Source: Kangiella shandongensis (lineage in GTDB: Bacteria > Pseudomonadota > Gammaproteobacteria > Enterobacterales > Kangiellaceae). From it: 64,000 bases of DNA. Position 1 is the stretch's first letter. Each line of letters begins with the position of its first letter. Location: positions 124,001 to 188,000 of the forward strand of contig NZ_JACNML010000005.1 of NCBI RefSeq assembly GCF_020005365.1, read 5' to 3'. Made by a program: the position numbers and the translations under genes. Shown one piece after another: positions 6,691-26,956 of the stretch. Below the pieces are notes generated by a model. That model saw nothing but the letters and a program-made list of their open reading frames with translations, did no database searches and was not told the origin of the DNA.

Positions 6691-7367
6691 TTACGGCAGT
6701 TGAGATAGGTAGCGCTCCATTTTGCGGTAGTTCAGAGCTTCGCTAATATGCTTCTGTTCGATGCTGGGCGACTGTTCTAAATCGGCAATAGTGCGGCACA
6801 CTTTTAAAATCCGGTGATAGGAGCGGGCTGAAAGATTGAATCGCTCCAGCGCCTGCGTTAATAAATCCTTAGCCGTGTTACTCAGAACGCAATAATCATC
6901 GACTTCGGAAGCCTGTAACTGGCCGTTGAGTTTTCCCTGACGCTGATGCTGTAGCGTTTGAGCCAGTTCGACACGCTGTCGAATGTCAGCACTGCTCGGT
7001 GTATTGGCAGGATTGCCCTGTAGCAGTTCATCCTGACTGAGCAAAGGAACTTCGACCTGCATATCGATGCGATCCAGAAGTGGCCCGGAAACCTTACCGA
7101 GGTAACGCCGGATTTGATCCGGAGTACAGCGACAATGTTGTTTGCGATTCCCAAAGTGACCACAGGGACAGGGATTAGTCGCAGCGAGTAATAAAAAGTC
7201 AGCCGGGTACTCGGCCTGATGAGCGGCACGAGAAATCGTGACTTTGCCGGTTTCCAGAGGTTCGCGCAGGTTATCCAGAACCTGACGTGAAAACTCAGTC
7301 AGCTCGTCCAGAAACAGAACGCCTTTGTGTGCCAGTGAGATCTCGCCCGGTTTGGGCTGACTGCCGC
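6691..7367 (-). pseudogene. comM: comM (YifB family), C-terminal part, cut by a Tn7-like insertion
   Basis: This is the distal part of a ComM/YifB AAA+ ATPase gene. The frame enters from the transposon end as GGSQPKPGEISLAHKG and continues through the Walker B region VLFLDELTEF, a Cys-rich NPCPCGHFGNRKQHCRC stretch, GPLLDRIDM and the C-terminal Mg-chelatase domain (SARSYHRILKVCRTIADLE). An internal ATG at 7062 would give only a 123-residue fragment. ComM is a hexameric helicase that promotes branch migration during natural transformation. Its N-terminal half is at 29681-30529. With the P-loop separated from Walker B, the protein should be non-functional. Confidence 0.93.
7363..7367. repeat. 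Target-site duplication, left copy (GCCGC)
   Basis: The five bases before the element match the five after it at 29681-29685. Joining 29681 onward to 7362 with one copy restores comM as LIGGGSQPKPGE without a frameshift. A 5-bp duplication is the hallmark of Tn7-family transposition. Confidence 0.92.
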
Positions 7368-7375
7368 TGACAATT

Positions 7376-7490
7376 CTATCGCTTTTTGAGAAAATTTATC
7401 TATTATTTGATGTTTTTACTAACGCTATTTGCGAATATAGCAAGATAAGTGTTGTTGTTTTGCATGATTTACTAGCGATAAATGAGAATG
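7376..7490. repeat. Left-end TnsB-type binding sites (three, spaced)
   Basis: Three 19-bp copies in the same orientation fit the consensus CTAnCGMTAWWTGMGAAWA: 7376-7394, 7419-7437 and 7472-7490. They start 43 and 53 bases apart, resembling the widely spaced sites of the Tn7 left end. The third copy ends 7 bases before the tnsA start and overlaps its ribosome-binding region, so transposase binding could repress the operon. Confidence 0.85.
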
Positions 7491-7497
7491 GATTGAT

Positions 7498-8190
7498 ATG
7501 AAAACTAGCAGGCCAGCAAGGAAAATCACTAAGAATTACAGGAGTTTAACTGGGGTTCACAACAATGTCGGCAATCCTCACTATAGTGATTTTGAGTCAA
7601 GTTTAGAGCGTGATTTTTTTCTGTTGCTAGAATTTGACAGAGAAGTTCAGCAATACAAGGCACAGCCACTGACAATTGTGTTTGAAAATAGCGGTGGTGA
7701 AACGAAGGAATTTACCCCAGATGCCTTGGTCACAACCAAGAATCCAGACAAAGGAATCGTTGAGCATACTTTGTATGAAGTTAAGTACAGAGAGCAGCTT
7801 AAAGATTCATGGTCAGAGTTTAAACCCAGATTTAAGGCGGCAATCCGTTTTGCCAAACTGCATGGCTGGAAGTTCAAGATCATTACCGAAAAAGAAATCC
7901 GTACACCCTATCTGGACAATATTACATTTCTTAAGCCACACTTTAGAGAGACAAGATTTAGCCCCAGAGCATTTCAGATACTCGAATATTTGGCAGAAGT
8001 TGGAGAGTCAACTCCAAGACAGATAATTGAGTCCATGTCGAGCCATAAAATGACACAGGCTGAGCTCTTATTCGCTGTTTGGCAGTTAGTAGCGCGACAG
8101 TACATTCTTGCAGATTTAACAGTCACCCTAACAATGAATTCAAGGATTAAGGTAGCAAAAATATGGGAAGGTTACGTTCACGAAGAGTAA
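7498..8190 (+). CDS. tnsA: TnsA-like transposase endonuclease subunit
   Basis: A 230-residue TnsA family protein, which makes the 5' strand cuts at the transposon ends and works with TnsB. The PD-(D/E)XK-type core is visible: ESSLERDFFLLLEFD with an early Glu, FTPDAL with the metal-binding Asp, and YEVKYR with the Glu/Lys pair. A C-terminal winged-helix-like half (STPRQIIESM...) would contact TnsC or DNA. It starts 131 bases inside the left end and overlaps tnsB by 28 bases. Its presence predicts cut-and-paste movement rather than replicative cointegration. Confidence 0.9.
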   Translation: MKTSRPARKITKNYRSLTGVHNNVGNPHYSDFESSLERDFFLLLEFDREVQQYKAQPLTIVFENSGGETKEFTPDALVTTKNPDKGIVEHTLYEVKYREQLKDSWSEFKPRFKAAIRFAKLHGWKFKIITEKEIRTPYLDNITFLKPHFRETRFSPRAFQILEYLAEVGESTPRQIIESMSSHKMTQAELLFAVWQLVARQYILADLTVTLTMNSRIKVAKIWEGYVHEE

Positions 8191-10055
8191 CGCTCAATCT
8201 TGATGTTGGAGCTGAGGTTTATTTAGGCGCTAAGAAGCACCTCATTGTGAATCACATTGATATGAAAGAGGTATGTGTTCGAGGTGTTGAAGATAATCAG
8301 CTCAAGATAGTAAAAATTAAGGATCTAACGGATGAGAAGTCGGAAGATAGCTCTAGAACAAGAGAAGATCTATTAATTATAGATGATAAACACTGGAAAG
8401 ACGTTCAGCGTAAGTATTTAGCAATTAAAGATCTGATAAAAACTCCAAAATACCAAAGAGACACAGAGCAGATCGAGGAAGTTGCAAAGGAAAGTGGTGT
8501 TAACAAGTCCACAATATACCGATGGCTATCTGATTATGAAAGATATGGCTCAATGACTTCATTATCCCGAATGACACGTCGAGACAAAGGGACAAGAAAA
8601 CTTCAACCTGAAGTAGAAGAAGTCATTCAAAATGTCATTGAAGAACTGTACCTCACTAGGGAAAGGAAAACCCAACAAGAGGTATGTTTAGAGGTAAGGA
8701 GAAGGTGCAAGCGAAAAAACTTAACATTACCTAATCACAATACGGTCATTGCTAGGATAAAAGTGATACCTCATCAAGTTAGAGCAAAAGCTCGATATGG
8801 TAAGAAAGGTATTGAAAAGCATCAGCCTGTAAGGGGGCACTTTCATGAAAATGGCGCTCCCCTATCCCTGGTCCAAATAGACCACACACCCTTGGATATT
8901 ATCCTTGTTGATGACATTGATAGAAAACCTATTGGTAAGCCCTGGATTACTCTTGCTATTGATGTTGCAACACGAATGGTTGCTGGGTTTTATGTAGGCT
9001 TTGAGCCGCCGAGCGCTATGTCCGTGGGGTTGTGCCTTTCTAGTGCTATGTTATCTAAAGATATATTGCTGGCTAAGCATGACATTGACGCTGAGTGGCC
9101 CGTTTGGGGGAAAATCCAAACAGTGCACGCAGATAACGCAAAAGAGTTCCGTGGCGATATGGTGCGCAGAGCGTGTCAGAACTATGGTATTGATTTGGAA
9201 TGGCGTGCTGTAGGAAAGACAAACTGGGGCGGTCATATTGAGAGGTATCTTGGCACCTTGTTAACGAAGATCCACGGTATGAAAGGAACGACCTTCAGTA
9301 ATACACAGGAGCGTGGTGATTACCCTTCTGAAAAAGAGGCCATTTTCTCTTTGAAGGAGTTTGAGAAAATACTGCTTATCAAAATAGTCGAAGAGTACCA
9401 CCAAACCATTCATTCGGAGATAAAAACAACGCCCTATGATAAATGGATGAGAGGGATATTTGGTGACGATGACCAAAAAGGCGTTGGGCTACCACGAAAG
9501 ATTGAAGATGAGGAGCGCTTCAGAATAGATTTCATGCCCTACAAAGAACGAACCGTTCAATCTTATGGCATTGTAATTGACGAGGTGCATTACTATTCAG
9601 ATGTGTTGAGACGTTGGATTAACTGTAAAGATCCTAAAAACAGTAGAGTCAAAAGAAAATTTATCGTACGAAGAGATCCAAGAGATATCAGTTATATCTA
9701 TTTCTTAGATCCAGAGCTTAATCGGTACTTTAAAGTTCCATACCGCGACACACGTCGACCTGCTATCAGTATTTGGGAGTTAAGAGAGTGTCAGCGATAT
9801 CTTAAAGAGCAAGGGGAAAAGGCATATGATGAAGAAAAGATTTTCTTGGCTCATGAGAAGCTAAAGGAAATAGAAGAAAACTCCCGCAGTAAAACGATAA
9901 AGGCGAGAAAGCGTAATGCCATTAGGCAAAAGGTATTGCAAGACAGGATTGAAGAAGTTATTCCACAACCAGAAAATACTGAGACGGAATTGGATGATGA
10001 GTTGTTTGAAGACATTCAACCTTTTGATGATATTGACACATTTGGGAAGAGTTGA
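8163..10055 (+). CDS. tnsB: TnsB-like DDE transposase
   Basis: A 630-residue Mu/Tn7-type integrase-fold transposase that recognises the end repeats and joins 3' ends to target. N-terminal helix-turn-helix segments (VAKESGVNKSTIYRWLSDYE) precede the catalytic core. The DDE residues are Asp in VQIDHTPLD, Asp in VHADNAKEF and Glu in GGHIERYLGTL. A basic C-terminal region follows, then an acidic tail (about residues 600-630) that may contact TnsC. Full length for the family, and it overlaps both neighbours. Confidence 0.93.
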   Translation: MGRLRSRRVTLNLDVGAEVYLGAKKHLIVNHIDMKEVCVRGVEDNQLKIVKIKDLTDEKSEDSSRTREDLLIIDDKHWKDVQRKYLAIKDLIKTPKYQRDTEQIEEVAKESGVNKSTIYRWLSDYERYGSMTSLSRMTRRDKGTRKLQPEVEEVIQNVIEELYLTRERKTQQEVCLEVRRRCKRKNLTLPNHNTVIARIKVIPHQVRAKARYGKKGIEKHQPVRGHFHENGAPLSLVQIDHTPLDIILVDDIDRKPIGKPWITLAIDVATRMVAGFYVGFEPPSAMSVGLCLSSAMLSKDILLAKHDIDAEWPVWGKIQTVHADNAKEFRGDMVRRACQNYGIDLEWRAVGKTNWGGHIERYLGTLLTKIHGMKGTTFSNTQERGDYPSEKEAIFSLKEFEKILLIKIVEEYHQTIHSEIKTTPYDKWMRGIFGDDDQKGVGLPRKIEDEERFRIDFMPYKERTVQSYGIVIDEVHYYSDVLRRWINCKDPKNSRVKRKFIVRRDPRDISYIYFLDPELNRYFKVPYRDTRRPAISIWELRECQRYLKEQGEKAYDEEKIFLAHEKLKEIEENSRSKTIKARKRNAIRQKVLQDRIEEVIPQPENTETELDDELFEDIQPFDDIDTFGKS

Positions 10056-10924
10056 TGAATATTGAGGATGTTAAAAAACTCGGTGCTGAGGAGCGGATTC
10101 ATCATATACAAAGTGGTCGATGGATTGGCTATGAGCGTGCTAAGAATTTGATTGCTTACTTTAATGAGCTCTTAAATCATCCCAAGGTCTCTCGAATGCC
10201 AAACGCTTTATTGGTCGGAGACACCAATAATGGGAAGACCATGGTTTTAGATACTTTTGTGAAGCAGCACCCAGCAAGAGAAGGTGATGACGGAGAGAGT
10301 GTCTATGCTCCCGTCCTTGCCATAGAGGCACCAGCAAAACCAGATGTTGATGAGTTTTACTGCTCTATCTTAGAGAAAGTGTTTGCGCCTTATAAGCCAA
10401 ATGACCGAGTTTCAAAGAAAAAATTTCAGGTCTATGGGCTGCTAGAAGAACTCAAGGTTAGAGTCCTGGTGATTGATGAGATCCATAATGTGGTTGCAGG
10501 TAGTGAGAAAAATAAGAAACAGTTTCTGAATGTGATTAAAGGTCTAGGGAATCATTTGAAAATACCAATCATTGCAGCAGGAACCGCTGAGGCATTTAAT
10601 GCAATTCAGTCGGATGATCAGCTGGCTAATCGGTTCAACCCTTGCTTGTTACCTAAATGGAAGTTGGATAAAGATTATTTAAGGCTGTTGGCTAGTTTTG
10701 AAGCAACGCTTCCATTGCGTAAGGCATCCAAACTTGCTACTAAGCAAATGGCTACCAAGATACTTTCCTTGAGTGAAGGGTCGATAGGAGAAATAAGCAC
10801 GGTTCTGACTCGAGCCGCGATTGATAGTATTCAGTCCGAAGAAGAGCATATTACGTTGGAATCGTTGAATAGAATTAGTTATATACCTCCCTCTGAGCGA
10901 AGGAGAATGAGGATGGATGTCTAA
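10055..10924 (+). CDS. tnsC: TnsC-like AAA+ transposition regulator
   Basis: A 289-residue AAA+ ATPase that bridges the target selector and the transposase. Walker A is LVGDTNNGKT and Walker B is VLVIDEIHN; NRFNPC sits near the sensor/arginine-finger region. It starts at the ATG at 10055, overlapping the tnsB stop (TGATG). It is shorter than Tn7 TnsC (about 555 residues) and closer in size to TniB-type regulators, in keeping with a short TniQ partner. Its end overlaps tniQ by 8 bases. Confidence 0.92.
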   Translation: MNIEDVKKLGAEERIHHIQSGRWIGYERAKNLIAYFNELLNHPKVSRMPNALLVGDTNNGKTMVLDTFVKQHPAREGDDGESVYAPVLAIEAPAKPDVDEFYCSILEKVFAPYKPNDRVSKKKFQVYGLLEELKVRVLVIDEIHNVVAGSEKNKKQFLNVIKGLGNHLKIPIIAAGTAEAFNAIQSDDQLANRFNPCLLPKWKLDKDYLRLLASFEATLPLRKASKLATKQMATKILSLSEGSIGEISTVLTRAAIDSIQSEEEHITLESLNRISYIPPSERRRMRMDV

Positions 10925-12086
10925 GCACTCGGGACGATTATTACCCGTTCATCCCAACCCATTACCAGATGAATTGTTATCTTCTTGGGTGTATCGCTTA
11001 GCAATGAGTAACTTTCAAAAAATTCGGTCATTTACACAACTATTGTTAGACAAGCGATCATTTTGGGCTCGAGATATGGATCGAATTGCGACCAATGAGA
11101 TTTTAAGCACTATCGCTATTAGAGCAGGGAAACCCTTCAAAGACATTAAGCAAACCACGCTTAGGGGGTATGAAAGTATTGTTTATGAGGAGTTTGGGGA
11201 AGGTGCGATAACGAAAGGAGTATTAGCGGTCGGTATGTACCATAGGGTGCACAAACGGTTTGGGCAGATGTATTGCCCTAAATGTCTAGCGGAGTCACCT
11301 CCCTATTATCGAAAAATATGGAGGGTGGCTTTCGTTACAGGCTGTTATAAGCATCAATGCCATTTAGAAGACAGGTGCCCCAAATGTCAAATGCCGATAT
11401 CGTTTAACCGTTGCGACAATGTGGATAGAGTATTTCCTTCTGCGCTCACCATAAATCACTGCCATAACTGTGAGTATGACTTATCAAAAACGTCTGTCAG
11501 AAAATTAAATGCTTATGATGCTCATGCAGTCGGCGTTGTAACTCGCGCAATTAATAATGGATGGGTCGATATTGGTATCAATCGTATTGTTTATTCACAC
11601 TTATATTTTAAAGCCCTTAGGAAGATAATCTATATCCTGGCATCTAGTAAATATGGCGGTAAATTAAGGCAGTATTTTAGACAGCGGGATCATTTTAAAG
11701 TAAGAGAAAAACCCTTAGGTGAACTCGAAAAGCAATCGTTGAAAGCAAGGAGCGTGTTCGTTAACCCTAGCGTATGGTTATTAAGTGATTGGCCATACCG
11801 ATTAATTCAGGTATTTGAAGATGCTGGCATTGAGCGGCTTCCATTACATATTATAAATGAGCGCACCCTTCCGTACTTTCTTGATCGAGTACTCAAAGTT
11901 GAGTTTGTTAAACAGCCGTACACCCCATCGTATGAAGAGTTCATTTCGGTTGAAGCCTATTTAAAGAAAATAGGCATAAAAGTTAACAATGCTAATATAT
12001 CTGGAATACTAGGCATCCCAAGTCAGACCCATCTTTATAATGAGTACAGGAAAAGGGCTAGCCAGCCGCCTCGCGAACCTTCTTGA
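10917..12086 (+). CDS. tniQ: TniQ/TnsD-family target-site selector
   Basis: A 389-residue TniQ-domain protein. The N-terminal signature LLPVHPNPLPDELLSSWVYR is typical. Cys/His zinc-finger pairs follow (YCPKC, CYKHQCH, RCPKCQ, HCHNCEYD). With no CRISPR components nearby, it may itself recognise the comM target, as TnsD does for glmS. It is shorter than Tn7 TnsD (about 508 residues). Its 3' end overlaps the convergent TnsE-like gene by 29 bases, which is unusually tight. Confidence 0.9.
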   Translation: MSKHSGRLLPVHPNPLPDELLSSWVYRLAMSNFQKIRSFTQLLLDKRSFWARDMDRIATNEILSTIAIRAGKPFKDIKQTTLRGYESIVYEEFGEGAITKGVLAVGMYHRVHKRFGQMYCPKCLAESPPYYRKIWRVAFVTGCYKHQCHLEDRCPKCQMPISFNRCDNVDRVFPSALTINHCHNCEYDLSKTSVRKLNAYDAHAVGVVTRAINNGWVDIGINRIVYSHLYFKALRKIIYILASSKYGGKLRQYFRQRDHFKVREKPLGELEKQSLKARSVFVNPSVWLLSDWPYRLIQVFEDAGIERLPLHIINERTLPYFLDRVLKVEFVKQPYTPSYEEFISVEAYLKKIGIKVNNANISGILGIPSQTHLYNEYRKRASQPPREPS

Positions 12087-13728
12087 AAATACGCTCAGCT
12101 AAGGTTTGCGGACTCTCTAAAGCCTTCTTGGTATGAAGACCTCTTACATAGGCGTACTGACGGTTAATAATGTCATGCCACCTCGTCATTCTAGCAAATC
12201 CTAGCTCCCGAAAGAGCGATGTTAAGTCAATATGGTCAATATAACTGTAACTTTGATTATAGAAGATAATCATAGGCATTTTGTCACTTACTTGCCGTCT
12301 TTGGATTTCCGTCAGATAAACAACCTTGCCTTTATAGTTACATTCAAATATGACGAACTGCCTATTATTGGCCCAAAAATTATCACTTGGAAAAAGATTA
12401 AAGTACTCATTATGAATGGTAAAACTCTTACAGCCTGCCACAGGAATAGCGTTGGCAGTAAAAGAAAACTTTTGTGCACTGATTTTAACAGCCTCAATAA
12501 TTTGATTTAGCCTTATTGTAATTTCTGGAGGTGATGTTTTAGAGTCTACAGGAGCGTTTTGGGATTTGCCGCTGGTACCTTTGCCTGAAGACTCGCCTTT
12601 CTTTGCTTCTCCTTTCTTTGGCGGTTTGTTGCCATCATAGTAGTACTTAGTAGCCTCCTTCTTTTTATTTTCAGGCTTCTTTCCGCGAATATGTGTAAAA
12701 CGATCTTGAAATAATAGAATCTGGCTCTTAAGAAAATCATTGTCAGGTTCTTCATTGTCGTTTGTATTACCCTGACGTTTGCCGCCCCTTTTCTTTCGGC
12801 GAGGGTTGTAAGGCTTAGTACCTTTGCCTTCTTCGTCTTCTGGGCCATCAGTGGGCCAAGTAATTGTAATATTGTCGAAGGGAAAACTATGTGAGCATTG
12901 AACAAGGTTAAGGGCTAAATAATGACCGTTTTGGAGGTTGACTCCTCTAGTGATTAAGGTGGTTCTTCCTTTAAATGGGAAAGTGGTCTCGGGTAGCAGT
13001 AAGTCACTGTTTGTGTGAGAAATCATTAACGAATTGTAGACTCTAACCGCTGAGGAGAATGCTTCCTTTGAGCAAGCCATTCTTGAAGCCATCCATACAT
13101 CCATTAAGTTAGCCCCTTGTGAAGCAAAGGCATGGAAAATATTTTCTTCAGGAAGATAAGACGATTTCTCCCAGTCAATACCAGCTGTTTTGCTCTTTAT
13201 CTCATCACTAAACAGGCATCGGTTCATATAAGAAGACGAGGAGAAGTAAAACCGTATTAGCTCCAGCATGGGAATAAGTACAGTAGTATCATCAGTCGCT
13301 GTAACCTTTATCAGTTTAGACTGCTGCGAATACGGTAGTCGGTATAGATATGGAGGAATATAATATCGGCCTTTAGTTATTTCGCTCCCTGCCGATATGG
13401 TGGAGGTATTCGAATTAATATCTAGAGTGAATATTCTTTTGCTTGATACAGGTGGCTGGTAGAATTTCTGATCTTTAATGATAGAACCTATCTCAAGATG
13501 ATGTAAATAGGATGCACCCACCCGAACTTTTTTCTTAGAAGACTCATCAATGATTTGCACTGAGTATGAGTTTCTATTTGGACGATAATGACATCGACTA
13601 ATTTCAAGCTCGATGAAGGGATTGCTCGGCATATTTTGGTTTTTATACAGTGAGCCTAGATAGTCAATTCTCCATAGACCCTCTTTAGGAAAAGCACTCA
13701 AAGGGAGCAGTTCATTATCATCACTCAT
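12058..13728 (-). CDS. TnsE-like transposition protein (divergent)
   Basis: A 556-residue protein whose length and layout match Tn7 TnsE (about 538). From memory of TnsE, the N-terminal IDYLGSLYKN resembles VHIGHLFRN, and IPMLELIRFYFSSSSYMNR resembles IPQLELARSLFLINSYFCR. A charged low-complexity linker (about residues 295-400, KKRGGKRQG, KKGEAKKGE) precedes a C-terminal domain in which GKVVYLTEIQRR parallels the TnsE C-terminal core. TnsE steers Tn7 into replicating DNA such as conjugal plasmids by contacting the sliding clamp and recessed 3' ends. It lies opposite tnsABC-tniQ and is coupled (ATGA) to the XseA-like gene upstream. The assignment needs a profile search. Confidence 0.65.
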   Translation of the reverse strand: MSDDNELLPLSAFPKEGLWRIDYLGSLYKNQNMPSNPFIELEISRCHYRPNRNSYSVQIIDESSKKKVRVGASYLHHLEIGSIIKDQKFYQPPVSSKRIFTLDINSNTSTISAGSEITKGRYYIPPYLYRLPYSQQSKLIKVTATDDTTVLIPMLELIRFYFSSSSYMNRCLFSDEIKSKTAGIDWEKSSYLPEENIFHAFASQGANLMDVWMASRMACSKEAFSSAVRVYNSLMISHTNSDLLLPETTFPFKGRTTLITRGVNLQNGHYLALNLVQCSHSFPFDNITITWPTDGPEDEEGKGTKPYNPRRKKRGGKRQGNTNDNEEPDNDFLKSQILLFQDRFTHIRGKKPENKKKEATKYYYDGNKPPKKGEAKKGESSGKGTSGKSQNAPVDSKTSPPEITIRLNQIIEAVKISAQKFSFTANAIPVAGCKSFTIHNEYFNLFPSDNFWANNRQFVIFECNYKGKVVYLTEIQRRQVSDKMPMIIFYNQSYSYIDHIDLTSLFRELGFARMTRWHDIINRQYAYVRGLHTKKALESPQTLAERIFKKVREAAG

Positions 13729-14771
13729 GGGAGTAGTCCTTTTACAAACTCTGTGGCTCCAGGAATAGTTAAAACTAAATAAATACCAATGATGGATCCG
13801 AGTAAGACGTAAATGATGGTTTTAATGTAGTTCTTAAAGAAAGACGGGGCTTTATGAGATGTATGGTATACAGCATCATCTGATTTAATATGATTGAGTT
13901 CATGATGAAGTCCGTCGTTACGCTGTTGGAGCCGTTGTTGTCGTTCACTCTCAGCTTTTTTTCTCATGTCGAAGTCGATACACTGTTCTTTCAAGTATTG
14001 TCCCAGTTTTGTCGGAGTAGCAACATATTTGTCAGCCACCATATCTGCGTGAGATACATCAAAAGAATGCCCAATAGCGGTTATGATCGGAGTTGATAAG
14101 TTGGTAATCGTTGAAACCAGATCTATGTGGTTAAATACTTCAAGGTGATCCCCACCTCCACGAACAATAGCTAATAAATCATAACCTTCGGAGTCTGCTT
14201 TTGTGAGCTCAGAAATAATCCCATGAGGATCACTTAGGTTTGTATTTTGAATAGTGATCTCAACGATTTCATCGACACCCGCTAAACCACTTTCCACATC
14301 CGATATGATACTCGATTGAAGCCCTGTAATAATATGAAGTTTGATAGGAGTGCTTTGCTCAAGTTTGTGTAGCACAAGCGAGGGTATGCTTTTATAGCCC
14401 AGCTTGTATTTCCGAGCCAATAAGTCAGATAACGTTGATTGCTCTAGGTCTAACGCTTTTCCGCTAACGATTTCTTTGACAACGAAACTAAAGTTAACTG
14501 CGACTTTGGTTTTAACCGAACGTTGAAAATAACCGTTAAGTTCGTATTGTGCGTTGTTCTGGAGTCTTGGAAAGTCTTTTTCGTGAACTTTTATAGTAAG
14601 GTAGAGCTTACTATCATTCTCGTATAGCTTGCAGTAAATATAACCACCGTATACACCGTAATTCTCAGGCTTTTCATAAATCCCTTTAACGGTAATTGTT
14701 TCTCTATCAAATGGTGTGGTTAAGTGGTTTCGTAAGTTTTCAGCTATTAATTCGGGTGTCAATGTTTCCAT
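13725..14771 (-). CDS. XseA-like protein with C-terminal membrane helix
   Basis: A 348-residue protein related to exonuclease VII large subunit. The N-terminal OB-fold-like part (VKGIYEKPENYGVYGGYIYC) is followed by the XseA catalytic-core signature AIVRGGGDHLEVFNH, then IITAIGHSFDVSHADMVAD and ATPTKLGQYL (about residues 200-275). A short basic coil replaces the long XseA coiled coil, and a transmembrane helix (about 318-340, IIYVLLGSIIGIYLVLTI) ends it. XseA normally pairs with XseB to digest single-stranded DNA; no xseB is here. It overlaps the TnsE-like gene by 4 bases, so the two are made together. Confidence 0.8.
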   Translation of the reverse strand: METLTPELIAENLRNHLTTPFDRETITVKGIYEKPENYGVYGGYIYCKLYENDSKLYLTIKVHEKDFPRLQNNAQYELNGYFQRSVKTKVAVNFSFVVKEIVSGKALDLEQSTLSDLLARKYKLGYKSIPSLVLHKLEQSTPIKLHIITGLQSSIISDVESGLAGVDEIVEITIQNTNLSDPHGIISELTKADSEGYDLLAIVRGGGDHLEVFNHIDLVSTITNLSTPIITAIGHSFDVSHADMVADKYVATPTKLGQYLKEQCIDFDMRKKAESERQQRLQQRNDGLHHELNHIKSDDAVYHTSHKAPSFFKNYIKTIIYVLLGSIIGIYLVLTIPGATEFVKGLLP

Positions 14772-14798
14772 ACGTTATTTAATATTTAATATTTAATG

Positions 14799-14816
14799 GA
14801 TAACAGTACTGTTATC
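14799..14816. promoter_or_regulatory. Perfect 18-bp palindrome upstream of the XseA/TnsE-like pair
   Basis: GATAACAGTACTGTTATC equals its own reverse complement and lies 28 bases upstream of the XseA-like start. ATTTAAT occurs as overlapping direct repeats between it and the gene. It is a strong operator candidate. It does not match the LexA box, and the binding protein is unknown. Confidence 0.55.
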
Positions 14817-14835
14817 GTGTTGGGAAATAAAAGCC

Positions 14836-15774
14836 CTACCAGTAACTCTTAGACATAATATTTATGCGTTGTATTTGGTTAAGATAGGTACTGTAGAGCA
14901 CGTGTAAGTCGTAAGTCTCAAAGTGCCACAAGGCGAACCCTGTTGTAACATCATCTTGATGAGAGTCTGGTGGCAAACTAATCTTTTGAAATAATATCTC
15001 TGGGCTATCATCGAACTGTAGATTAAAGGGAAGCTGCCCAGACCAACCTTTTGCATCTAAGTCTCCAGCACGATATAGCTTAATTGCGCCGAATGTAGGT
15101 GTTTTTAACTCGTCTTGTAAGAAAAACTCAAAACCATAGTTAAGATAATCAATGGAATGCTCACCTTCATCCAGCGCTTTAATGTCACCAGGAATATCAA
15201 ACCCATCAAAGGCTGATAATACGTCAGAGTGATCTACGGTGCTTCCTAACGCATCAATAATTGCATTGAGTTCTAGGGTGGTTGATGACAACTCACTACT
15301 TTTTCTTAGTTCGCACACAATATCGACAATTTTCTCATAGCTTTCATCGTATGACACCACAAGTTCACACTGGGGTAGTGACCACACATCTCGTAGGTAA
15401 GAACGTCTAGATTCTTCGTAATTGGAAAGTTTTTGCCTAACGTCTCTTTGAGTATCATTCCATTGAAGGGAGAATGGCAGAGTATCTTGATAAGCTAAAA
15501 TATCGTCAGACTCACTATAGAAAACAACGCCCGTCAATATCAGAGGTCCTTGCCCCCACAAGTGTTCATCCTCATTGTCGAAATAGGGTTTATCACAGAA
15601 CGTGAGCTCGATGCCATGGTTACGACATGGCAGCCACGTATAAAACTGATAATCTTCAATATCATCCGAATCAAGGTAAGGCCTTCGTCGAATACCAAAC
15701 TTATCGTAAACCGACTCTAATTCTGGGCTTAACGCCTCTTTTCCCAGTAATTGAATTACTTGCTCAAACTGCAT
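14836..15774 (-). CDS. Two-module putative immunity protein
   Basis: A 312-residue acidic cytosolic protein with no signal peptide. It consists of two related modules (about 1-150 and 165-312). The first shares HGIELTFCD, a GPLILTGVVFY strand and a PFSLQWNDT-type motif with the 169-residue neighbour (HGIEFIFDD, GDLILTGILLF). The second keeps YGFEFFLQD and QLPFNLQFDDSP. Its place directly downstream of a PAAR-like toxin and the shared fold suggest immunity to that toxin or to rival variants. This is inference from context. Confidence 0.6.
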   Translation of the reverse strand: MQFEQVIQLLGKEALSPELESVYDKFGIRRRPYLDSDDIEDYQFYTWLPCRNHGIELTFCDKPYFDNEDEHLWGQGPLILTGVVFYSESDDILAYQDTLPFSLQWNDTQRDVRQKLSNYEESRRSYLRDVWSLPQCELVVSYDESYEKIVDIVCELRKSSELSSTTLELNAIIDALGSTVDHSDVLSAFDGFDIPGDIKALDEGEHSIDYLNYGFEFFLQDELKTPTFGAIKLYRAGDLDAKGWSGQLPFNLQFDDSPEILFQKISLPPDSHQDDVTTGFALWHFETYDLHVLYSTYLNQIQRINIMSKSYW

Positions 15775-15791
15775 AGAAGCTCCCTGATGTT

Positions 15792-16301
15792 TTAGTCTTT
15801 AAAGCCATAAAGGCCTTTTTCCTTTGCCTGTTCATAAGGGTAGCAGGTTAAAGTAATTAAACTAATATTTGTCTTATCATCAGAGTAATCTACAGCAACA
15901 CGATATGTATCTTTCTCCCAAAACTCGGAGTTGAAAAAATCGTCGAAGTTACCTGGATCACCCCAAATATCAATAACTTCATCCCTAGAAGAGTTGAGAG
16001 AGACTTTATCGAACAAGTGTCCATCGAACACTTTGTTATCTTCAGGTGAGTTGAACAAGAGAATACCTGTTAGTATTAAGTCACCATCACCAAACTCCTG
16101 ATACTCTAGCTCTTTAACCATTGCTTCATCATCAAAAATAAACTCTATGCCGTGCTTGGGTAGTGTCGCGTAAGTTGTAGGTTCGTCATAACTTGATAGA
16201 GCAACAGGCTGTTTGTAGCCCATAGTCTCCAGTACAGTCTTCACATTTGGATCGTTGCTGGTCTTGCCTAATAATGTCACTAAACTATTGGCATCTATCA
16301 T
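15792..16301 (-). CDS. Putative immunity protein for the PAAR-like toxin
   Basis: A 169-residue acidic cytosolic protein that overlaps the toxin stop codon by one base, the usual arrangement for a cognate immunity gene. The motifs HGIEFIFDD, GDLILTGILLFNSPEDN and DKVSLNSSRDEV recur in both halves of the 312-residue downstream protein, so the two genes share a duplicated module. I recognise no named immunity family. It would protect the producer by binding the nuclease-like domain. Confidence 0.68.
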   Translation of the reverse strand: MIDANSLVTLLGKTSNDPNVKTVLETMGYKQPVALSSYDEPTTYATLPKHGIEFIFDDEAMVKELEYQEFGDGDLILTGILLFNSPEDNKVFDGHLFDKVSLNSSRDEVIDIWGDPGNFDDFFNSEFWEKDTYRVAVDYSDDKTNISLITLTCYPYEQAKEKGLYGFKD

Positions 16302-17974
16302 TACTTAACACCTTTAATCGTTTTCATTAAGAAAGTATCAAAATCTTTGTTAGTCATATTCAGTATCTGTTTGGCAGCAGCTTTATAAGCCTCGCGGCAA
16401 CCGCCGTCCGCATCGTACTCATCAATCTGCTTAAGCATTGTTTCTGTATCTCGTTTAGCTGCTCCAGCTAAATTACCTGCATCCTGTATTACCCTTTTTG
16501 CCGAATTTCGTCCACCATAGGTTGGGCTGACCTGCTGATGGGCTTTTCTAGGTATTGCAATCGCGTCTGCGGCGTTTTCAATAGCTTTAGCTTGCTCAGA
16601 GCTTAACCGTTTACCACGTTTAGCAAGTATCATTTCAGCTCTTTTCTTCAAAGCAGCTTTTGAAGGAACGTGGTCTCTGTCAAACTTACCACCTCCTGTT
16701 TTCTTCTTTAAGTTCTTATAGCTATTTTTTTCACCGCACTTGAGTTTTTTCTTACTACCTTTCTTTTTCTTCCCATCGCCTTTAACCTGATCTTGGCTCT
16801 TTTTGCTCTTAGGCGGCACCGCATCCGCAGCTTTGCCATTCGCGGCATTTTGGGCATTCTTTTTGTTCTTCTTTAAATTAGCAGCCGCTTCTTGTAACTG
16901 TTTTTTGGCATCAGCCAGCTTTTGCATCGCAGCTTTCTTGGCGGCTCGGGCTTTCTCCAGCTTGCGCGCCAGATTGATGCCGCGCCTGGCAACAATACCG
17001 CCTTTAAAGGGCTTAGCCACCAAATCTCCGATATACGGAAAAGCTGACACCCCATCCAGAATGGCTTCACCGTAATTACCCCGACTCCATGAGATACCAG
17101 CATTCACCAAGTCAGAAGCAGGTGTTGGGTCAATGAGCCCTGTGGCGCCAAGGGCTGCTTGAGCGGTGTCGAGCTGGGCTTCTTGCTCCAGTCGTGCCAT
17201 TTCAGCGTTGGCTGCATCCAGCTCGGCCTGCGCTGCGCGTTGTGAGCTTAGGGCATCTTCCACATCAGGATTAGCGATGATTTCATTATCGTAATTAAAA
17301 TCATCAAGACTGTCAGGCTTATAGTCATACGTCCCGAACTCTGGGTTGTACTCCAACCCGTCAATGCCCATGGGGTTGTTATTGCTGCTGAACAAGTTAT
17401 TGCTTCCTAACGGGTTTTGAAAGGCATCATCAGGCAGCTGGCTATCCATAGCCTTAAGCTCTTCATTGGTACCGTTTTGATACCGCAGTGATTCTTTATT
17501 GTTTTGTGTATCCTCGGCATCGTAAGTGAAGGCTTTGATTTCGCCATTCTCACCAACATAAGCCATGGCCGTGACTTTGATGTAAACGGCTTTGCCCATG
17601 ACATTGCCGCCGCCTTTTGGGCTGGAGCAGTTCATTTCAAACAAACTGTCGTGACGAATCACCCAACCGCCCTCGACACGGAAGGTGCTACTGTACATGG
17701 CTTTTGGCACACAATAGCCCTTATTCACGCCTGACTTGACGCCGCCGAGCTTACCAGGCTCGTTGCCCACCACTTTGGTGATGTGGCTGTTGGTGGTAAA
17801 AACCTTCTTTCCCGTAAAGAATACGGTTTTCGTCACGCCGTCAGCGTCTTGAAAGCTGCCGATAGGAAAGTACGGCAAGGGTGGCGTTGAGCTACCCACA
17901 GGCGTTTTACAAAAGTCGGGCGCTAGGGGTGTAACCTTAGCATCACCTATCTGGCGACCTGCTTCCTTACCCAT
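16301..17974 (-). CDS. PAAR-like (DUF4150) T6SS effector with nuclease-like C-terminus
   Basis: A 557-residue polymorphic toxin. The N-terminus (about 1-130) is a DUF4150 PAAR-like spike tip (DFCKTPVGSSTPPLPYFPIG, FFTGKKVFTTNSHI). A linker and a long Ala/Lys-rich helical segment (about 230-390) lead to a C-terminal toxin domain (about 400-557) that starts LKCGEKNSYKNLKKKTGGGK and contains FDRDHVPSKAAL and PRKAHQQVSP, His-rich motifs like those of HNH-type nuclease toxins. Its start overlaps the DUF2169 adaptor gene by 8 bases. The catalytic class is inferred from motifs only. Confidence 0.8.
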   Translation of the reverse strand: MGKEAGRQIGDAKVTPLAPDFCKTPVGSSTPPLPYFPIGSFQDADGVTKTVFFTGKKVFTTNSHITKVVGNEPGKLGGVKSGVNKGYCVPKAMYSSTFRVEGGWVIRHDSLFEMNCSSPKGGGNVMGKAVYIKVTAMAYVGENGEIKAFTYDAEDTQNNKESLRYQNGTNEELKAMDSQLPDDAFQNPLGSNNLFSSNNNPMGIDGLEYNPEFGTYDYKPDSLDDFNYDNEIIANPDVEDALSSQRAAQAELDAANAEMARLEQEAQLDTAQAALGATGLIDPTPASDLVNAGISWSRGNYGEAILDGVSAFPYIGDLVAKPFKGGIVARRGINLARKLEKARAAKKAAMQKLADAKKQLQEAAANLKKNKKNAQNAANGKAADAVPPKSKKSQDQVKGDGKKKKGSKKKLKCGEKNSYKNLKKKTGGGKFDRDHVPSKAALKKRAEMILAKRGKRLSSEQAKAIENAADAIAIPRKAHQQVSPTYGGRNSAKRVIQDAGNLAGAAKRDTETMLKQIDEYDADGGCREAYKAAAKQILNMTNKDFDTFLMKTIKGVK

Positions 17975-19004
17975 GGTGCGCTCCTTGCGGTTTATTCGAT
18001 GATGGACTTTGCTCCGCCATCTCTACCAAACGCGCTTCAATATGCTCAATCTCGTCATCCATACGGAAGGTCGCCCGCCAGGTCAGATGCGCCCGTAAGT
18101 TTTCAGGGTCGAGAATTAAGGTGTCCAGATAAGCTCGCGTGACGACCGCTTTATTGATACGCGCCCCTATCATCAAACCTGGCAGCTGCGTCTTAATGGT
18201 ACGGTACTGTGGATGAAGGTTAATCAGGGTAATAGGTTCGTTACCCCGTAACATGCCTGGATAGATTAAGTCAGGGTGGGCACCGTTATAGAAACTAAAA
18301 TCAAAATCATAAGGCAAACTCGGATGCTCGTGCTGTAACCACTCATCATCGGTAGTACCCACCAGCTCACGCCTCGGTAGCCAGCCTTTACCAATAAAGC
18401 CAAAGCCTTCAGGACGGTAATGCTTGCCGAACTCTTGAACAGGCTCTTCAATGGATTCTATTTGTGGTGCTTGAATGCTCTGATATTCAAATTTACCAAA
18501 GCCCGCAAAGCCCATGCCCACAGGGTTCTGCTCATAGTAGGTCGCTTTATCGCCTGCGCCCCAGCTGCCGCCGTAGGCGTATTCATAGCGTAGTGGCACA
18601 CTTAAGGCTGGCTCAGGGCGTGACAGTGACCAGCCTAGACCTCGCTTTCGCCAATGGCGCTCGCCATAAACGGCCAAAGCCTTTTGATGCTCACCAACGA
18701 CCACACGCGTTCCCCATGACTCCATGGGATGGCCGCCTGGGGCGTAACTGTGTCCCGTAACCACAATATCGCTACGCGGTTTAAACGGCACCACGTCGCT
18801 TTCATACAAGATGCTCGCAGCATCGTCATCGTCGTGATACCTGTCGGCTGTCACCAGTTCGTCTTGAAACTGACAGGGCTTCATCACCTCGTTCGGCTGG
18901 TATTCGAAAGTGCCTTTGAACACAATAATGTGAACAGCCTTATCCGCATGGTCGATGTTACTAAAAAAGAATGGCGGAAAAGGCGTGACGTTAATAAACT
19001 CCAT
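17967..19004 (-). CDS. DUF2169 T6SS adaptor/chaperone
   Basis: A 345-residue DUF2169 protein. Typical motifs are VTPFPPFFFSNIDHADK near the start, TGHSYAPGG, LSVPLRYEYAYGG and NPVGMGFAG. DUF2169 proteins help load DUF4150/PAAR-like effectors onto VgrG. It sits between vgrG and the toxin with tight spacing (9 bases to vgrG, 8-base overlap with the toxin), so all three should be one transcript and one delivery unit. Confidence 0.85.
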   Translation of the reverse strand: MEFINVTPFPPFFFSNIDHADKAVHIIVFKGTFEYQPNEVMKPCQFQDELVTADRYHDDDDAASILYESDVVPFKPRSDIVVTGHSYAPGGHPMESWGTRVVVGEHQKALAVYGERHWRKRGLGWSLSRPEPALSVPLRYEYAYGGSWGAGDKATYYEQNPVGMGFAGFGKFEYQSIQAPQIESIEEPVQEFGKHYRPEGFGFIGKGWLPRRELVGTTDDEWLQHEHPSLPYDFDFSFYNGAHPDLIYPGMLRGNEPITLINLHPQYRTIKTQLPGLMIGARINKAVVTRAYLDTLILDPENLRAHLTWRATFRMDDEIEHIEARLVEMAEQSPSSNKPQGAHHG

Positions 19005-19013
19005 GCCTTGTCC

Positions 19014-21149
19014 TTAAGGGTTCACATCCACAACTTTACCCGTGAGCGTGACGTTCTTGTCACCGTTAATGTTAATTTTGTTGCCACTGATAACAATCTC
19101 GCCATTTTTCTTGAGCGTAATCGAGGCTTCGCCTGTGGCAAACTGGATTTCATCACCAGCAACAATGGTCACTTTCTTACCCACGCGGACGTCTTTCATC
19201 AAGCCCACTTGCTCAGAGCTGGATAAGCCCACCGATTCGTTTTTAGCCGCGCCAACAGTGATTTGATACGCTGCACCAATACTGAGAGCTTTAGCCAAGG
19301 TGATCGTTTCAGCTTTATTCATACCAACGGTGATGGTTTCGTTTTTACCAACATTCTCGGTACGACTCTTACCAATCTCGATGGATTGCTCTTTAGCAAC
19401 GGTAATCGACTCATTGCCACCCACTGATTCCGTTCTATCGGCACCAATATCAATGGTTTCATTCTTGCCGACCGTTTCTTTGCGGTTATTGCCGATGGTG
19501 ATGGTTTCGTTGTTATCCACGGTTTCAGTACGATCGTGCTTCACATGAACCGTTTCATCGTTGCCAATGGTTTTGGTGCGGTTATTCAGAACATCGCGAC
19601 TCTCGTCATTCTTAACCAAGGTGTCCATGTTCTTCTCGGCCTGCACCGAGTACTGCTCTTGGCCTTTTTTATCCTCAAAGCGAATGCCGTTGTAGTTATC
19701 GGCACCGCCACCTGGCGTGGAGCGAGACATCCAACCGCTTTGAGTTTTGTTATTAGGTAAAGAGTAAGGCGGCATCGAGTTGGCGTTATAAACCCTTCCT
19801 GTGATAATCGGTCTGTCTGGATCGCCATCTTCAAATTCCACCAAGACTTCCTGACCAATACGCGGGATGTTCATGCCACCAAAGCCCGTGCCTGCCCACT
19901 GGTGTGAGACACGCACCCAGCAGGAGCTGTTTTCGTCTTTTTGGCCTTCGCGATCCCAATGGAACTGGACTTTAACGCGACCATATTCATCGGTGTAGAT
20001 TTCTTCACCCGCGGGCCCCGTGACTATGGCGCTCTGCAAGCCTTGAATCGACGGTTTTGGTTGGCGACGCTCGGGGCGATACTGCACCGTTTTAGGAATA
20101 CAAGTGAACTGATTGCTGATTTCTTGCTTCGGCTCGTCGTTGTTTAAGTAGCTATCGTCCGAGGCCTCGTAGGTCATGGCCGTAATCAGGAAACCTTTGC
20201 CGATTTCAGTCGGATCTTCATGGATTTTAAGGTTGAAGGTACCGCCGACCATCAGCTCTCGGCAAGTGCTGTGCGCTGTGACTTGTTGATGGAACTGCTC
20301 TTGCTCTTCCATACGGGCTTTAATTTCCTGCTCGCCAAGCCCCGAATCGTAATACTCACCTGGGTAATCATAAACCTCATAGGTCTCGCACCCTGGGAAA
20401 CCACTTTTGCCCTGATTGCTCACCTCAAGCGGATCATCAGGGCTCTCAAAATTGAAACCACGAGCCGAATATACACCTCTTGGGAACACCACGTCACTTT
20501 GCCATTCGCTAATATACTCTTCATTCAAGCTGCCGTAGCTTTGCGACACGATGGCTTGCGGACAAGTGGGATAGCTCGACTTATTATCGGCTAACACCAA
20601 TGTGTGTTTACCTTGCTCGTGAATAAAGTAATAGTAAATCCCCGCTTCTTCCAACAAGCGATGAATGAAAGCTAAGTCACTTTCTTTGTATTGAACGCAA
20701 TAGGGATGCGGTGAATAGCTACCGACCGTCTGGTTCTTAAAGGCGACTTCATGCTCACCCAATACCTGCTGCACGATATCCAGCAACGACTGCTCTTGGA
20801 ATATGCGTAAATTGACCCGCTGACCCAGGAACCAAATTTTAGGAACTATGATAAGGCGGTAACGATACAAGGACTCTGAAGCTCGGCCTAAGTTACTCAA
20901 CCGAGCCACATAGCCATTAAAATAGCGGACGCCACCATGATTCAGCTCATACCCAAAGTCTATGGATTGCCCAACCAAGTCTTGTGCTGGCAGGCCTGGC
21001 TCTTCAGACAAACAGGTTAAGGTAAACTCAAAAGGGTTAGACAAGCTGTCTTGACCATGAATATCGGTCATTAAGAGCGTATTATCGCCCAACGGAGAGT
21101 GGATCTGTAAGAGACGGTTTCCCTGTGTGTAGCGTTCAAGTAAGCCCAT
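19014..21149 (-). CDS. vgrG: VgrG (TssI) T6SS spike protein
   Basis: A 711-residue VgrG. The gp27-like N-terminal part (about 1-370) is followed by the gp5-like OB fold (AIVTGPAGEEIYTDEYGRVK, WVRVSHQWAGTGFGG, GQEVLVEFEDGDPDRP). A C-terminal needle is built from about ten short repeats of the ETIxIGxxRxExVG type (about residues 510-640). There is no extra C-terminal toxin domain, so it carries its payload through the downstream DUF2169 and PAAR-like proteins. It heads the payload operon behind a CRP-like site. No T6SS core genes are in this window. Confidence 0.92.
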   Translation of the reverse strand: MGLLERYTQGNRLLQIHSPLGDNTLLMTDIHGQDSLSNPFEFTLTCLSEEPGLPAQDLVGQSIDFGYELNHGGVRYFNGYVARLSNLGRASESLYRYRLIIVPKIWFLGQRVNLRIFQEQSLLDIVQQVLGEHEVAFKNQTVGSYSPHPYCVQYKESDLAFIHRLLEEAGIYYYFIHEQGKHTLVLADNKSSYPTCPQAIVSQSYGSLNEEYISEWQSDVVFPRGVYSARGFNFESPDDPLEVSNQGKSGFPGCETYEVYDYPGEYYDSGLGEQEIKARMEEQEQFHQQVTAHSTCRELMVGGTFNLKIHEDPTEIGKGFLITAMTYEASDDSYLNNDEPKQEISNQFTCIPKTVQYRPERRQPKPSIQGLQSAIVTGPAGEEIYTDEYGRVKVQFHWDREGQKDENSSCWVRVSHQWAGTGFGGMNIPRIGQEVLVEFEDGDPDRPIITGRVYNANSMPPYSLPNNKTQSGWMSRSTPGGGADNYNGIRFEDKKGQEQYSVQAEKNMDTLVKNDESRDVLNNRTKTIGNDETVHVKHDRTETVDNNETITIGNNRKETVGKNETIDIGADRTESVGGNESITVAKEQSIEIGKSRTENVGKNETITVGMNKAETITLAKALSIGAAYQITVGAAKNESVGLSSSEQVGLMKDVRVGKKVTIVAGDEIQFATGEASITLKKNGEIVISGNKININGDKNVTLTGKVVDVNP

Positions 21150-21244
21150 ATCTGTTCCCTAGACGGATGCAAATCAATAGTTGCTGAGTATTCTAATAGA
21201 TATATTTTAAAATCCATTATATATATCAGATGATATTTAAGATA

Positions 21245-21260
21245 TGTGACGTTTATCACA
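21245..21260. promoter_or_regulatory. CRP-type binding site upstream of vgrG
   Basis: TGTGACGTTTATCACA has the full TGTGA-N6-TCACA arrangement of CRP operators. It is centred about 103 bases upstream of the vgrG start, with AT-rich sequence between. It would link the payload operon to host cAMP signalling. The match is sequence-only. Confidence 0.5.
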
Positions 21261-21268
21261 TTAAAGGT

Positions 21269-21331
21269 GCTTGGGCTGCAAGGGATGGCGAATCAAATTC
21301 CGTATCAAAACGCAAGGAAGGCAGCCCAAGC
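21269..21331. repeat. 11-bp inverted repeat between vgrG and the XRE gene
   Basis: GCTTGGGCTGC at 21269-21279 is the reverse complement of GCAGCCCAAGC at 21321-21331, with a 41-base loop. It lies in the 420-base gap 21150-21569, which otherwise holds the CRP-like site and no convincing gene. It could be a transcript structure or a short palindromic repeat. Confidence 0.45.
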
Positions 21332-21569
21332 CCGCGTATTGTATATAAGGCCGATAACTGCTCCTACCAGAGATAACTATAATCATTGTAAGAAATCTCG
21401 TAAGATTTTGAGTTAGTGTGATGTGGAGTTGATCAATTAAGGTGGTTGTGAGCAAATCTAGTCAGACTGTTAGGCATATATAGATATTAGTAGTAAGCCT
21501 GTGACGGATTAAAGATCATTTGCCACTAGCCACAAATTAATCTAACCAGAATAACTTATTCAAATAACG

Positions 21570-21902
21570 CTATTTCTCAAGTAACGGAGCTGTACTTCTC
21601 AATAGACTTGTAATCTTACAAGCATGCTCTTCAGATCCATCCCACACATCATGAAGAGTTTCCATCAAAAGAGATATTTGATCTTTGCCTCCAACAAAAT
21701 CTTCAACCTCTATAGATAAAAATTTACAAACTATTGCAAGATTTTTTGAATAAGTTTTAAAGCGACCTTTTTGAAATCTCCAGATCTGAGTACGATCAAC
21801 ACCAGTTTTTTTTGATAGCGAATCTATACTTATCCCTTGATTTCTAAGGGTTTCATTGATTGAAAACTGTATCCTAAATGCTGATACTTGATCTATTTTC
21901 AT
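21570..21902 (-). CDS. XRE-family regulator of the defence operon
   Basis: A 110-residue protein with a Cro/CI-type helix-turn-helix (SIDSLSKKTGVDRTQIWRFQKG, about residues 24-45) and a short C-terminal helical part. It is divergent from the Hachiman-like operon with about 60 bases between starts. A perfect 12-bp palindrome in that gap overlaps the likely -35 box of the defence promoter, so it is a plausible repressor. No toxin partner is adjacent. Confidence 0.82.
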   Translation of the reverse strand: MKIDQVSAFRIQFSINETLRNQGISIDSLSKKTGVDRTQIWRFQKGRFKTYSKNLAIVCKFLSIEVEDFVGGKDQISLLMETLHDVWDGSEEHACKITSLLRSTAPLLEK

Positions 21903-21925
21903 ACGAATAAATACAATACATTTTT

Positions 21926-21954
21926 TTGCAACATGTTGCTATTTTTGTTATATT
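21926..21954 (+). promoter_or_regulatory. Candidate promoter and operator of the Hachiman-like operon
   Basis: TTGCAA (21926-21931) and TATATT (21949-21954) are 17 bases apart, a near-consensus sigma-70 promoter. The palindrome GCAACATGTTGC (21928-21939) overlaps the -35 box, where bound XRE protein would block polymerase. Transcription should start near 21961, so translation from 21963 would be almost leaderless. Confidence 0.6.
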
Positions 21955-21962
21955 GTTACTAT

Positions 21963-26080: not shown

Positions 26081-26114
26081 GGTTTGATTAAAGTTTAGGA
26101 GTGAAGAGGTATTT

Positions 26115-26756
26115 ATGAGGGATAGAAAGTTATTAACGGTTTATGACGTAATTGTAGATAACTATAATATTGAGGAGATTGGAGAAGGTCATTATCTGCA
26201 TACGTTTACAACTAAGACAACAGGAAATAAATTTGAATACGAAGGGAAAAGTATTGAGATTGTTGAAGAGAATGAAAGGTATAATATAGGTTATGAAAAG
26301 ATAGGCGGAAGAAATATCATTGCATTACATTCATTGTCTAAAGTATCAAGCGTCAATAAAAACATTAGCTATAATTACGCAAAACAAATTGCATCTGAAG
26401 ATTTTAATATTAACAAGCAAAAAAATGATGACAGAGTTTCTCATAGTGCTAGCGATGGGTATTATTGGGGGAAAAAGTATGCATGGAGAGCGTACGGTGG
26501 AATCGTTATAGCAAAAGAAGCATTTTTCAATTATCTTGACGAAATTAATCACCCCTCAGTCAGCTGTATTACAGATGATCCAGATAAGCCCTTTGCAGGT
26601 AACGAGTCAATTGCATATAAAGATGAAGGATTGGAAGAAAAGCTGGATGCTCTTATTGAAACGGCAGAGAAAAGTGGAAAAAGATTTTACAAGTCGGAGT
26701 TGTACTCAAAAAAATTTATTATTAAAGGCATAAAAGCAATCACAGACAAGAAATAG
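26115..26756 (+). CDS. Unknown protein following the Hachiman-like genes
   Basis: A 213-residue soluble protein, 34 bases after hamB, with AGGAG and AGAGG upstream of its ATG. I recognise no family. Visible features are a polar beta-rich N-terminal half (residues 1-80), DGYYWGKKYAWRAYGG near the centre, and an acidic-then-basic helical C-terminus ending KGIKAITDKK. Its strand, spacing and AT content match hamAB, so it may be a third system component or an adjacent single-gene cargo. There is no known-function evidence. Confidence 0.72.
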   Translation: MRDRKLLTVYDVIVDNYNIEEIGEGHYLHTFTTKTTGNKFEYEGKSIEIVEENERYNIGYEKIGGRNIIALHSLSKVSSVNKNISYNYAKQIASEDFNINKQKNDDRVSHSASDGYYWGKKYAWRAYGGIVIAKEAFFNYLDEINHPSVSCITDDPDKPFAGNESIAYKDEGLEEKLDALIETAEKSGKRFYKSELYSKKFIIKGIKAITDKK

Positions 26757-26956
26757 TTCTGCACAGTAATATAGACACTTTAAAGAGTGCGCGTGGAAAT
26801 TCAGGGTTATGTTGATGCGTTACCACATTGTAATGGTACCACTCATTTACGAGGATACCCCAAAAGAAGCTCCGAAGGTGCTCCAGCTAACATCCCAAAC
26901 CCTACTGCTAAATTCACCTGCAATTATGCGCTTTTTTAGGTTTTAAGGAATAATTA

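Follow-up and report, generated by a model that had tools for sequence, protein, structure and literature searches.

Tn6022-like elements inserted in comM are recognised here by TnsA, TnsB, TnsC, TniQ and TnsE, with TnsF behind TniQ. The available part of a 2024 review describes TnsE as almost universal in comM elements and states that there is no mechanistic information on TnsE proteins other than that of prototype Tn7 (PMC11406308). Canonical TnsE, according to excerpts of another paper, prefers plasmids during transfer and binds DNA with recessed 3′ ends (PMC5371812), and the accessible portion of Faure et al. 2023 gives less than 10% identity between the TnsE proteins of the Tn7 and Tn6022-like branches, the N-terminal part being PriB-like (PMC10293859). 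The locus analysed here lies in a 64,000-nucleotide stretch of Kangiella shandongensis DNA (the window; G000:C22:124001-188000), from a genome of 2.80 Mb in 26 contigs. It holds a Tn7-like element in comM in which the gene for a divergent TnsE overlaps one for a solo relative of XseA, the large subunit of exonuclease VII.

The arrangement is as the preliminary description of this locus gave it, with two minus-strand genes that overlap by ATGA. The gene of the XseA relative (348 aa, 13725..14771) ends on the start of tnsE (556 aa, 12058..13728), and the four nucleotides at 13725..13728 are common to the stop of the former and the start of the latter; on the minus strand the junction reads CTCCCATGAGTGATGA, with ATGA at 13728-13725. 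At its other end tnsE is convergent with tniQ, the two overlapping by 29 bp. TnsE of comM elements is already known; the overlapping solo XseA gene is new as far as we have searched. Literature searches on Tn7-like elements or TnsE with XseA or exonuclease VII returned no paper on the pair, and others, judged from their listings, none that treats solo XseA proteins carrying a membrane helix.

Identification of the 556-residue protein depends on its family, since the protein alone gives no significant match in Pfam, NCBIfam, PADLOC, PHROGs or PDB sequences. Relatives were drawn from 80 named TnsB loci and from sampled genomes, in which they occur in 2 of 99 and 2 of 369, and in 9 of 394 when a profile was used (the window's own genome being included each time); a genome scan with TnsB alone confirmed none. 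The resulting alignment of 26 members including the window (A6) matches a canonical set of six TnsE proteins picked via PF18623 (A7) from end to end in hhalign, with probability 98.5, E 2e-15 and 509 columns, and a smaller profile (A3) matches the same set with probability 97.2 and E 4.5e-11. The Pfam family PF18623 (TnsE_C) is reached singly by three of the 26 members, with a best E of 2e-4, and the window protein is not among them. The TnsE-like character that the preliminary description assigned to this gene is thus upheld by the family profile, while the profile check it proposed fails for the single window sequence.

An AlphaFold2 model of the window protein, built from the 26-sequence alignment, has a mean pLDDT of 67.5, with values of about 47-71 per block from residue 421 on. 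When this model was compared by Foldseek with 350,542 PDB chains, ranks 1-7 were all TnsE C-terminal domains (5d17, 5d16, 9d5l), at probability 0.63-0.98 and TMt 0.44-0.51 with weak E-values of 0.069-0.56. Weak matches to SSB/PriB-like proteins follow, PriB 3klw at rank 12 and 4dam at rank 14. An earlier model from 13 sequences returned these TnsE entries too, at ranks 2-7 and 11. A search of PDB with the TnsE profile gave four matches (E 0.075-1.5), none of them TnsE. These profile and structure results agree with Faure et al. 2023, as far as the accessible portion goes, on both divergence and PriB likeness (PMC10293859). Two other identities, TnsF and an unrelated gene, were ruled out: the family aligns end to end with TnsE, and a TnsF profile matches no window frame of at least 80 aa. 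We conclude from the sequence comparisons and the predicted structure that the 556-residue protein is a divergent but intact TnsE, which would act as a selector for replicating or conjugating DNA.

The canonical sequence IPQLEMARVLF, presumably the clamp site of TnsE, aligns with IPMLELIRFYF at residues 152-162 of the window protein. None of the 26 family members has glutamine in the clamp column, where the residues are Cys in six, His in five, Met in three, Ile, Val, Ser and Arg in two each, and Thr and Pro in one each, with a gap in two. The sequence QILLF at residue 336 of window TnsE fits the short form, QxxLF, of the clamp-binding consensus motifs given in excerpts of PMC5371812, and sits in a low-confidence linker. 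Since the glutamine is absent both here and throughout the alignment, clamp binding does not transfer to window TnsE by way of the canonical motif, and the check for such a motif suggested in the preliminary description came out negative at the canonical place.

The second gene was described at the outset as that of an XseA relative with a C-terminal membrane helix, and this stands for the family and, as a prediction, for the helix. Pfam Exonuc_VII_L matches residues 142-293 (E 9.2e-21, 75.1 bits against a cut-off of 35.9), NCBIfam xseA matches with E 6.5e-23 and 81.5 bits, below its equivalog cut-off of 180, and among PDB sequences 8txr is matched with E 3.2e-4. Across eight aligned proteins D158, GGG205-207 and H235 do not vary, and seven of the eight have R204 (Lys in L104); the window protein also has D238. 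We take these conserved residues, D158, R204, GGG205-207, H235 and D238, to be the catalytic residues of the E. coli enzyme. A hydrophobic 19-residue segment starting at residue 318, with a mean Kyte-Doolittle value of 2.37, is predicted from this hydropathy peak to be a transmembrane segment (residues 318-336, corresponding by residue number to 13764..13820 on the minus strand).

There is also no XseB beside the gene, as originally noted; the genome's single Exonuc_VII_S match lies elsewhere, on a different contig (G000:C1:83360-83512), and none lies in the element locus. The host has a second XseA of 451 aa on contig C21 (L002), without a strong hydrophobic segment; the idea that the window protein is a recent copy of this host xseA was not adopted, the two being 22% identical in the alignment. 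The GC content is 0.38-0.41 for the XseA-tnsE block, 0.40-0.42 for the tns core and 0.43-0.51 for the T6SS block. Simple promoter-like sites in 11900-15900 number 17, modestly above the chance expectation of 10.6 (sd 3.7). No PADLOC model is matched by the window XseA relative or by three other solo XseA proteins scanned.

Recurrence of the pair was assessed in a survey of genomes that comprised 1,987 genome searches (some genomes repeated) and the 80 TnsB-selected loci. From these loci 50 genomes were chosen, mostly ones with no TnsE so far or one with little flanking sequence, and 44 of them proved to carry TnsE; for twelve TnsE loci, wider stretches from the same genomes took the place of the first ones. 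This gave 72 TnsE loci with flanks, mostly of about 6 kb per side. In 70 of these, the window among them, 1 kb or more lies upstream of TnsE, and in two (L116 and L208) less than 150 bp. L117, which is the same element as L031, was left out, as were fragments in L016 (two) and L096, and L225 gave no TnsE frame. The 72 loci are not independent lineages: L183 and L197 share one genome and L210 and L211 a second, and L217/L218 and L075/L084 seem to be near copies, to judge by their identical sizes and gaps.

An XseA profile run over the 72 loci matched the window and none of the other 71. The preliminary description had proposed the pair as a targeting module, and had named in advance the lack of repeated association of the two families in other elements as what would speak against it; within this sample that is what was found, and a recurring TnsE-XseA module is rejected. 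Directly upstream of TnsE, 22 of the 72 loci have comM on the same strand, as would follow from TnsE being the end gene. In a comM element of another species of the genus (G014; L119), TniQ and TnsE converge in the same way, but upstream of TnsE come genes for a membrane protein of 167 aa and for a large protein with Ig domains, not for XseA.

Some further TnsE neighbourhoods were seen on the way. In a TnsF-less group (L020, L022-L026) TnsE adjoins a gene whose C-terminus we take to be lipA-like. At L008:9336-11231 a TnsE-like gene stands beside a gene that reads as recQ-like, with no Tns core gene in 20 kb. In the genome of L025, a TnsE place at G1094:C71:99436-101151 has one TAG inside the matched stretch.

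Relatives of the XseA protein are found elsewhere, mainly on plasmids. A tblastn search matched 64 plasmid and 6 phage records, and seven of these 70 were examined in detail; many of the remaining 63 are haloarchaeal and annotated xseA. The seven solo genes come from plasmids of Thermus, Bacteroides, Paenibacillus, Prevotella, Allomeiothermus and Fusobacterium and from one fecal phage record. Five of the seven proteins have a 19-residue segment of mean hydropathy at least 1.6, which is C-terminal in four; the Allomeiothermus protein has a weaker C-terminal segment (1.34) and the Bacteroides protein none (1.04). Two of the genes, in the fecal phage record and the Bacteroides plasmid, adjoin a PDDEXK_4 nuclease matching the PADLOC candidate PDC-S26 (E 5.5e-76 and 4.5e-85), with opposite gene orders (L100:3250-6005, L011:4686-7005). 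Among sampled genomes, the window's own genome is the only one of 369 from its class with a match at E<=1e-14, and one of 17 among 398 phylum genomes at E<=1e-11. The other 16 phylum matches, in frames of 402-582 aa and within query residues 120-297, look like ordinary XseA. Scans of viral contigs with the window protein and three solo XseA proteins confirmed none.

In one clade a different DNA-processing gene accompanies tnsE. In five loci TnsE is followed immediately, on its own strand, by a gene for a UvrD-type helicase of 831-888 aa (L030:7386-10001, L031:14624-17119, L034:14421-17006, L035:7210-9876 and L197:3323-5983), with TnsE-helicase gaps of 38, 59, 3, -11 and -1 respectively. Pfam names four of the helicases, and the L197 helicase was recognised with a profile built from them (E 5.6e-158). 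The TnsB proteins of these loci (L039 standing for L197) form one clade of five with support 99, the elements being from Pseudoalteromonas, Marinomonas, Motilimonas and Planctobacterium. The two Pseudoalteromonas elements (L030, L035) share 97% identity in TnsB and TnsC, 58% in TniQ, 58% in TnsE and 46% in the helicase, and their nucleotide similarity drops within tniQ and recovers within tnsE; the TniQ-helicase-TnsE block has therefore changed apart from TnsABC. The helicase may be cargo too, since PADLOC relates these proteins to GajB-type UvrD. Of the literature found on TnsE, UvrD and Tn7, PMC8649781 mentions UvrD once in the part available, and that mention concerns Gabija. Weaker relatives of the helicase lie farther from TnsE in L122 and L199.

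Because solo XseA relatives are mainly plasmid-borne and in two cases neighbour a candidate defence nuclease, our judgement leans, somewhat beyond an even chance, towards the window XseA relative being a cargo or competition function and not a conserved part of target selection. The pair sits in a Tn6022-like Tn7 relative inserted in comM. On this reading the element would have privately acquired a solo XseA gene, which landed in front of tnsE, and the ATGA overlap would couple translation of the two products. We infer a location at the inner membrane and degradation of entering single strands: the protein would most likely be a tethered nuclease, acting on single-stranded DNA as it enters the cell, whether that of a conjugating rival plasmid or of a phage.

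Several observations weigh against this interpretation. The ATGA overlap with tnsE is closer than unrelated cargo would suggest, the GC content of the XseA-tnsE block is like that of the tns core and so gives no compositional sign of recent entry, and the helicase directly behind tnsE in five loci hints at working partners in TnsE operons. Nuclease activity, topology and action on incoming DNA are predictions from sequence, and the defence interpretation comes from two loci, with no PADLOC match for four solo XseA proteins, the window's among them. A search with the Bacteroides solo XseA in 109 genomes around a Paludibacter genome found it in none, a result that the search tool rates as uninformative.

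A partnership in targeting would have the membrane-bound XseA relative process or hold single-stranded DNA at plasmid entry, giving gapped or recessed-end structures that TnsE uses for insertion. The preference of canonical TnsE for plasmids in transfer and for recessed 3′ ends, as stated in excerpts of PMC5371812, would suit such a scheme, as would the ATGA overlap with a confirmed TnsE, the conserved motif residues together with the predicted membrane helix, and the linkage of another DNA-processing enzyme, the UvrD-type helicase, to TnsE in one clade. However, the XseA relative is missing from all 71 other TnsE loci, the comM element of G014 in the same genus has other genes at that place, solo XseA genes are also carried by plasmids whose examined stretches contain no transposon gene, and an exonuclease that destroys single-stranded DNA could equally remove the target. 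A role for XseA in targeting therefore lacks comparative support and we consider it unlikely, as we do the partnership with TnsE. A more general version, which we regard as decidedly unlikely, is that TnsE operons recruit lineage-specific DNA-processing enzymes (here the XseA relative, there the UvrD-type helicase) that make the entering or replicating strand ready, letting a TnsE without the canonical clamp motif still find its target.

Two further explanations set TnsE aside. The nuclease might help in repair after insertion, independently of TnsE, by trimming flaps or gaps at the transposon ends or the donor break; exonuclease VII acts on single-stranded DNA ends, and the XseA gene lies near the core genes with a similar GC content, but a membrane anchor is hard to reconcile with such a task, the host already has XseA and XseB, and the gene is not found in the other 71 TnsE loci, so that this too is very improbable. 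We think it no less doubtful that the gene is a passive hitch-hiker, unexpressed or non-functional and trapped upstream of tnsE. The pair does not recur, and promoter-like sites are only modestly above chance (17 against 10.6 expected, sd 3.7), yet the frame is intact, the motif residues and predicted helix have been preserved, and the register of the tnsE overlap is a workable one. Whatever its role, a tnsE that overlaps the gene for a predicted membrane-bound nuclease provides a natural, testable exception for TnsE outside prototype Tn7.

The element as a whole spans 7368..29680 (22,313 bp), its ends being read from the sequence, with pieces of comM on both flanks. The outer ends, also read directly, are TGACAATTCTATCG on the left and TGTGAATTCTATCG on the right (reverse complement), and a target-site duplication, GCCGC, is found by direct reading at 7363..7367 and 29681..29685 (both given on the plus strand). 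Inside the right end are two 19-bp repeats (29633-29677), possibly transposase binding sites. The 3′ part of comM, identified by translation and tblastn, occupies 6691..7367 and the 5′ part, interrupted past the ALIGGG codons, 29681..30529, both on the minus strand; just past the latter, at 30542-31597, a frame reads like an integron-type tyrosine recombinase.

The core genes run on the plus strand from the left end. TnsA (7498..8190) has both the N- and C-terminal Pfam TnsA domains; the TnsB transposase (8163..10055) matches Mu-transpos_C (E 2.8e-10) and is 38-48% identical to TnsB relatives; TnsC (10052..10924) is a TniB-type AAA ATPase (TniB E 8.5e-70); and a short TniQ of 389 aa follows at 10917..12086 (TniQ E 8.3e-23). 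The cargo includes a Tox-PAAR / DUF2169 / VgrG block at 16301-21149 and a 5′-nucleotidase. A Hachiman-like HamA and HamB pair at 21888-26080, with PDC-M23A and PDC-M23B as best PADLOC matches, is likely to be further defence cargo of the element. Adjoining the Tox-PAAR gene, at 14836-16301, are genes for two small, mutually similar proteins (E 2.3e-8), possibly immunity genes.

The absence of TnsF is shared with other comM elements. Thirteen comM loci lack TnsF within the stretches examined (the window, L006, L030, L031, L034, L035, L080, L193, L195, L198, L215, L216 and L222), L192 being excluded since in its genome the TnsB locus (L052) stops immediately after TniQ. In a tree built from 91 TnsB proteins, all 39 TnsF-bearing rows sit in one clade of 43. 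Whether or not TnsF is present, comM is interrupted right after ALVGG or a few codons further on, exactly the same codon being used only by some elements. The 5′ part of comM abuts the TnsA end in L030, L031, L034, L035 and L080 and the far end in the window and others, and both orientations therefore occur. A long TniQ of 509-532 aa is present in three of the thirteen. The accessible portion of Faure et al. describes TnsF as required for the Tn6022 studied there (PMC10293859); that elements with and without TnsF, short-TniQ ones among them, interrupt comM at or near one place reopens the question of how comM is recognised.

Comparison with described proteins and elements brings out both likeness and departure. 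The solo XseA proteins of plasmids (Thermus pHB5002c, Paenibacillus pSb31l, Prevotella pE2-28) share the catalytic motif with the window protein, and several are similar in size; identity is only 20-27%, and they have other neighbours, with no transposon core gene listed beside them. The match to the catalytic domain and the conserved residues also join the window protein to the exonuclease VII large subunit XseA (PF02601, TIGR00237), from which it differs in its length of 348 aa, its score far under the equivalog cut-off, a shorter C-terminal part with the predicted membrane helix, and a locus without XseB. With the TnsE of Tn7 (PF18623; PDB 5D16, 5D17, 9D5L) the window TnsE shares the full-length profile alignment, the C-terminal fold and weak SSB/PriB-like matches, whereas it is too divergent for a single-sequence match and has M154 where the canonical clamp-motif stretch has glutamine. 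In common with Tn6022-like comM elements the window element has separate tnsA and tnsB, tnsC, a short TniQ, a divergent TnsE on the opposite strand and insertion in comM with a target-site duplication. In contrast to them, it is without TnsF, its tnsE adjoins tniQ instead of lying near the far end and is overlapped by the gene of the XseA relative, and its TnsB forms a long branch of its own outside the TnsF clade of the TnsB tree.

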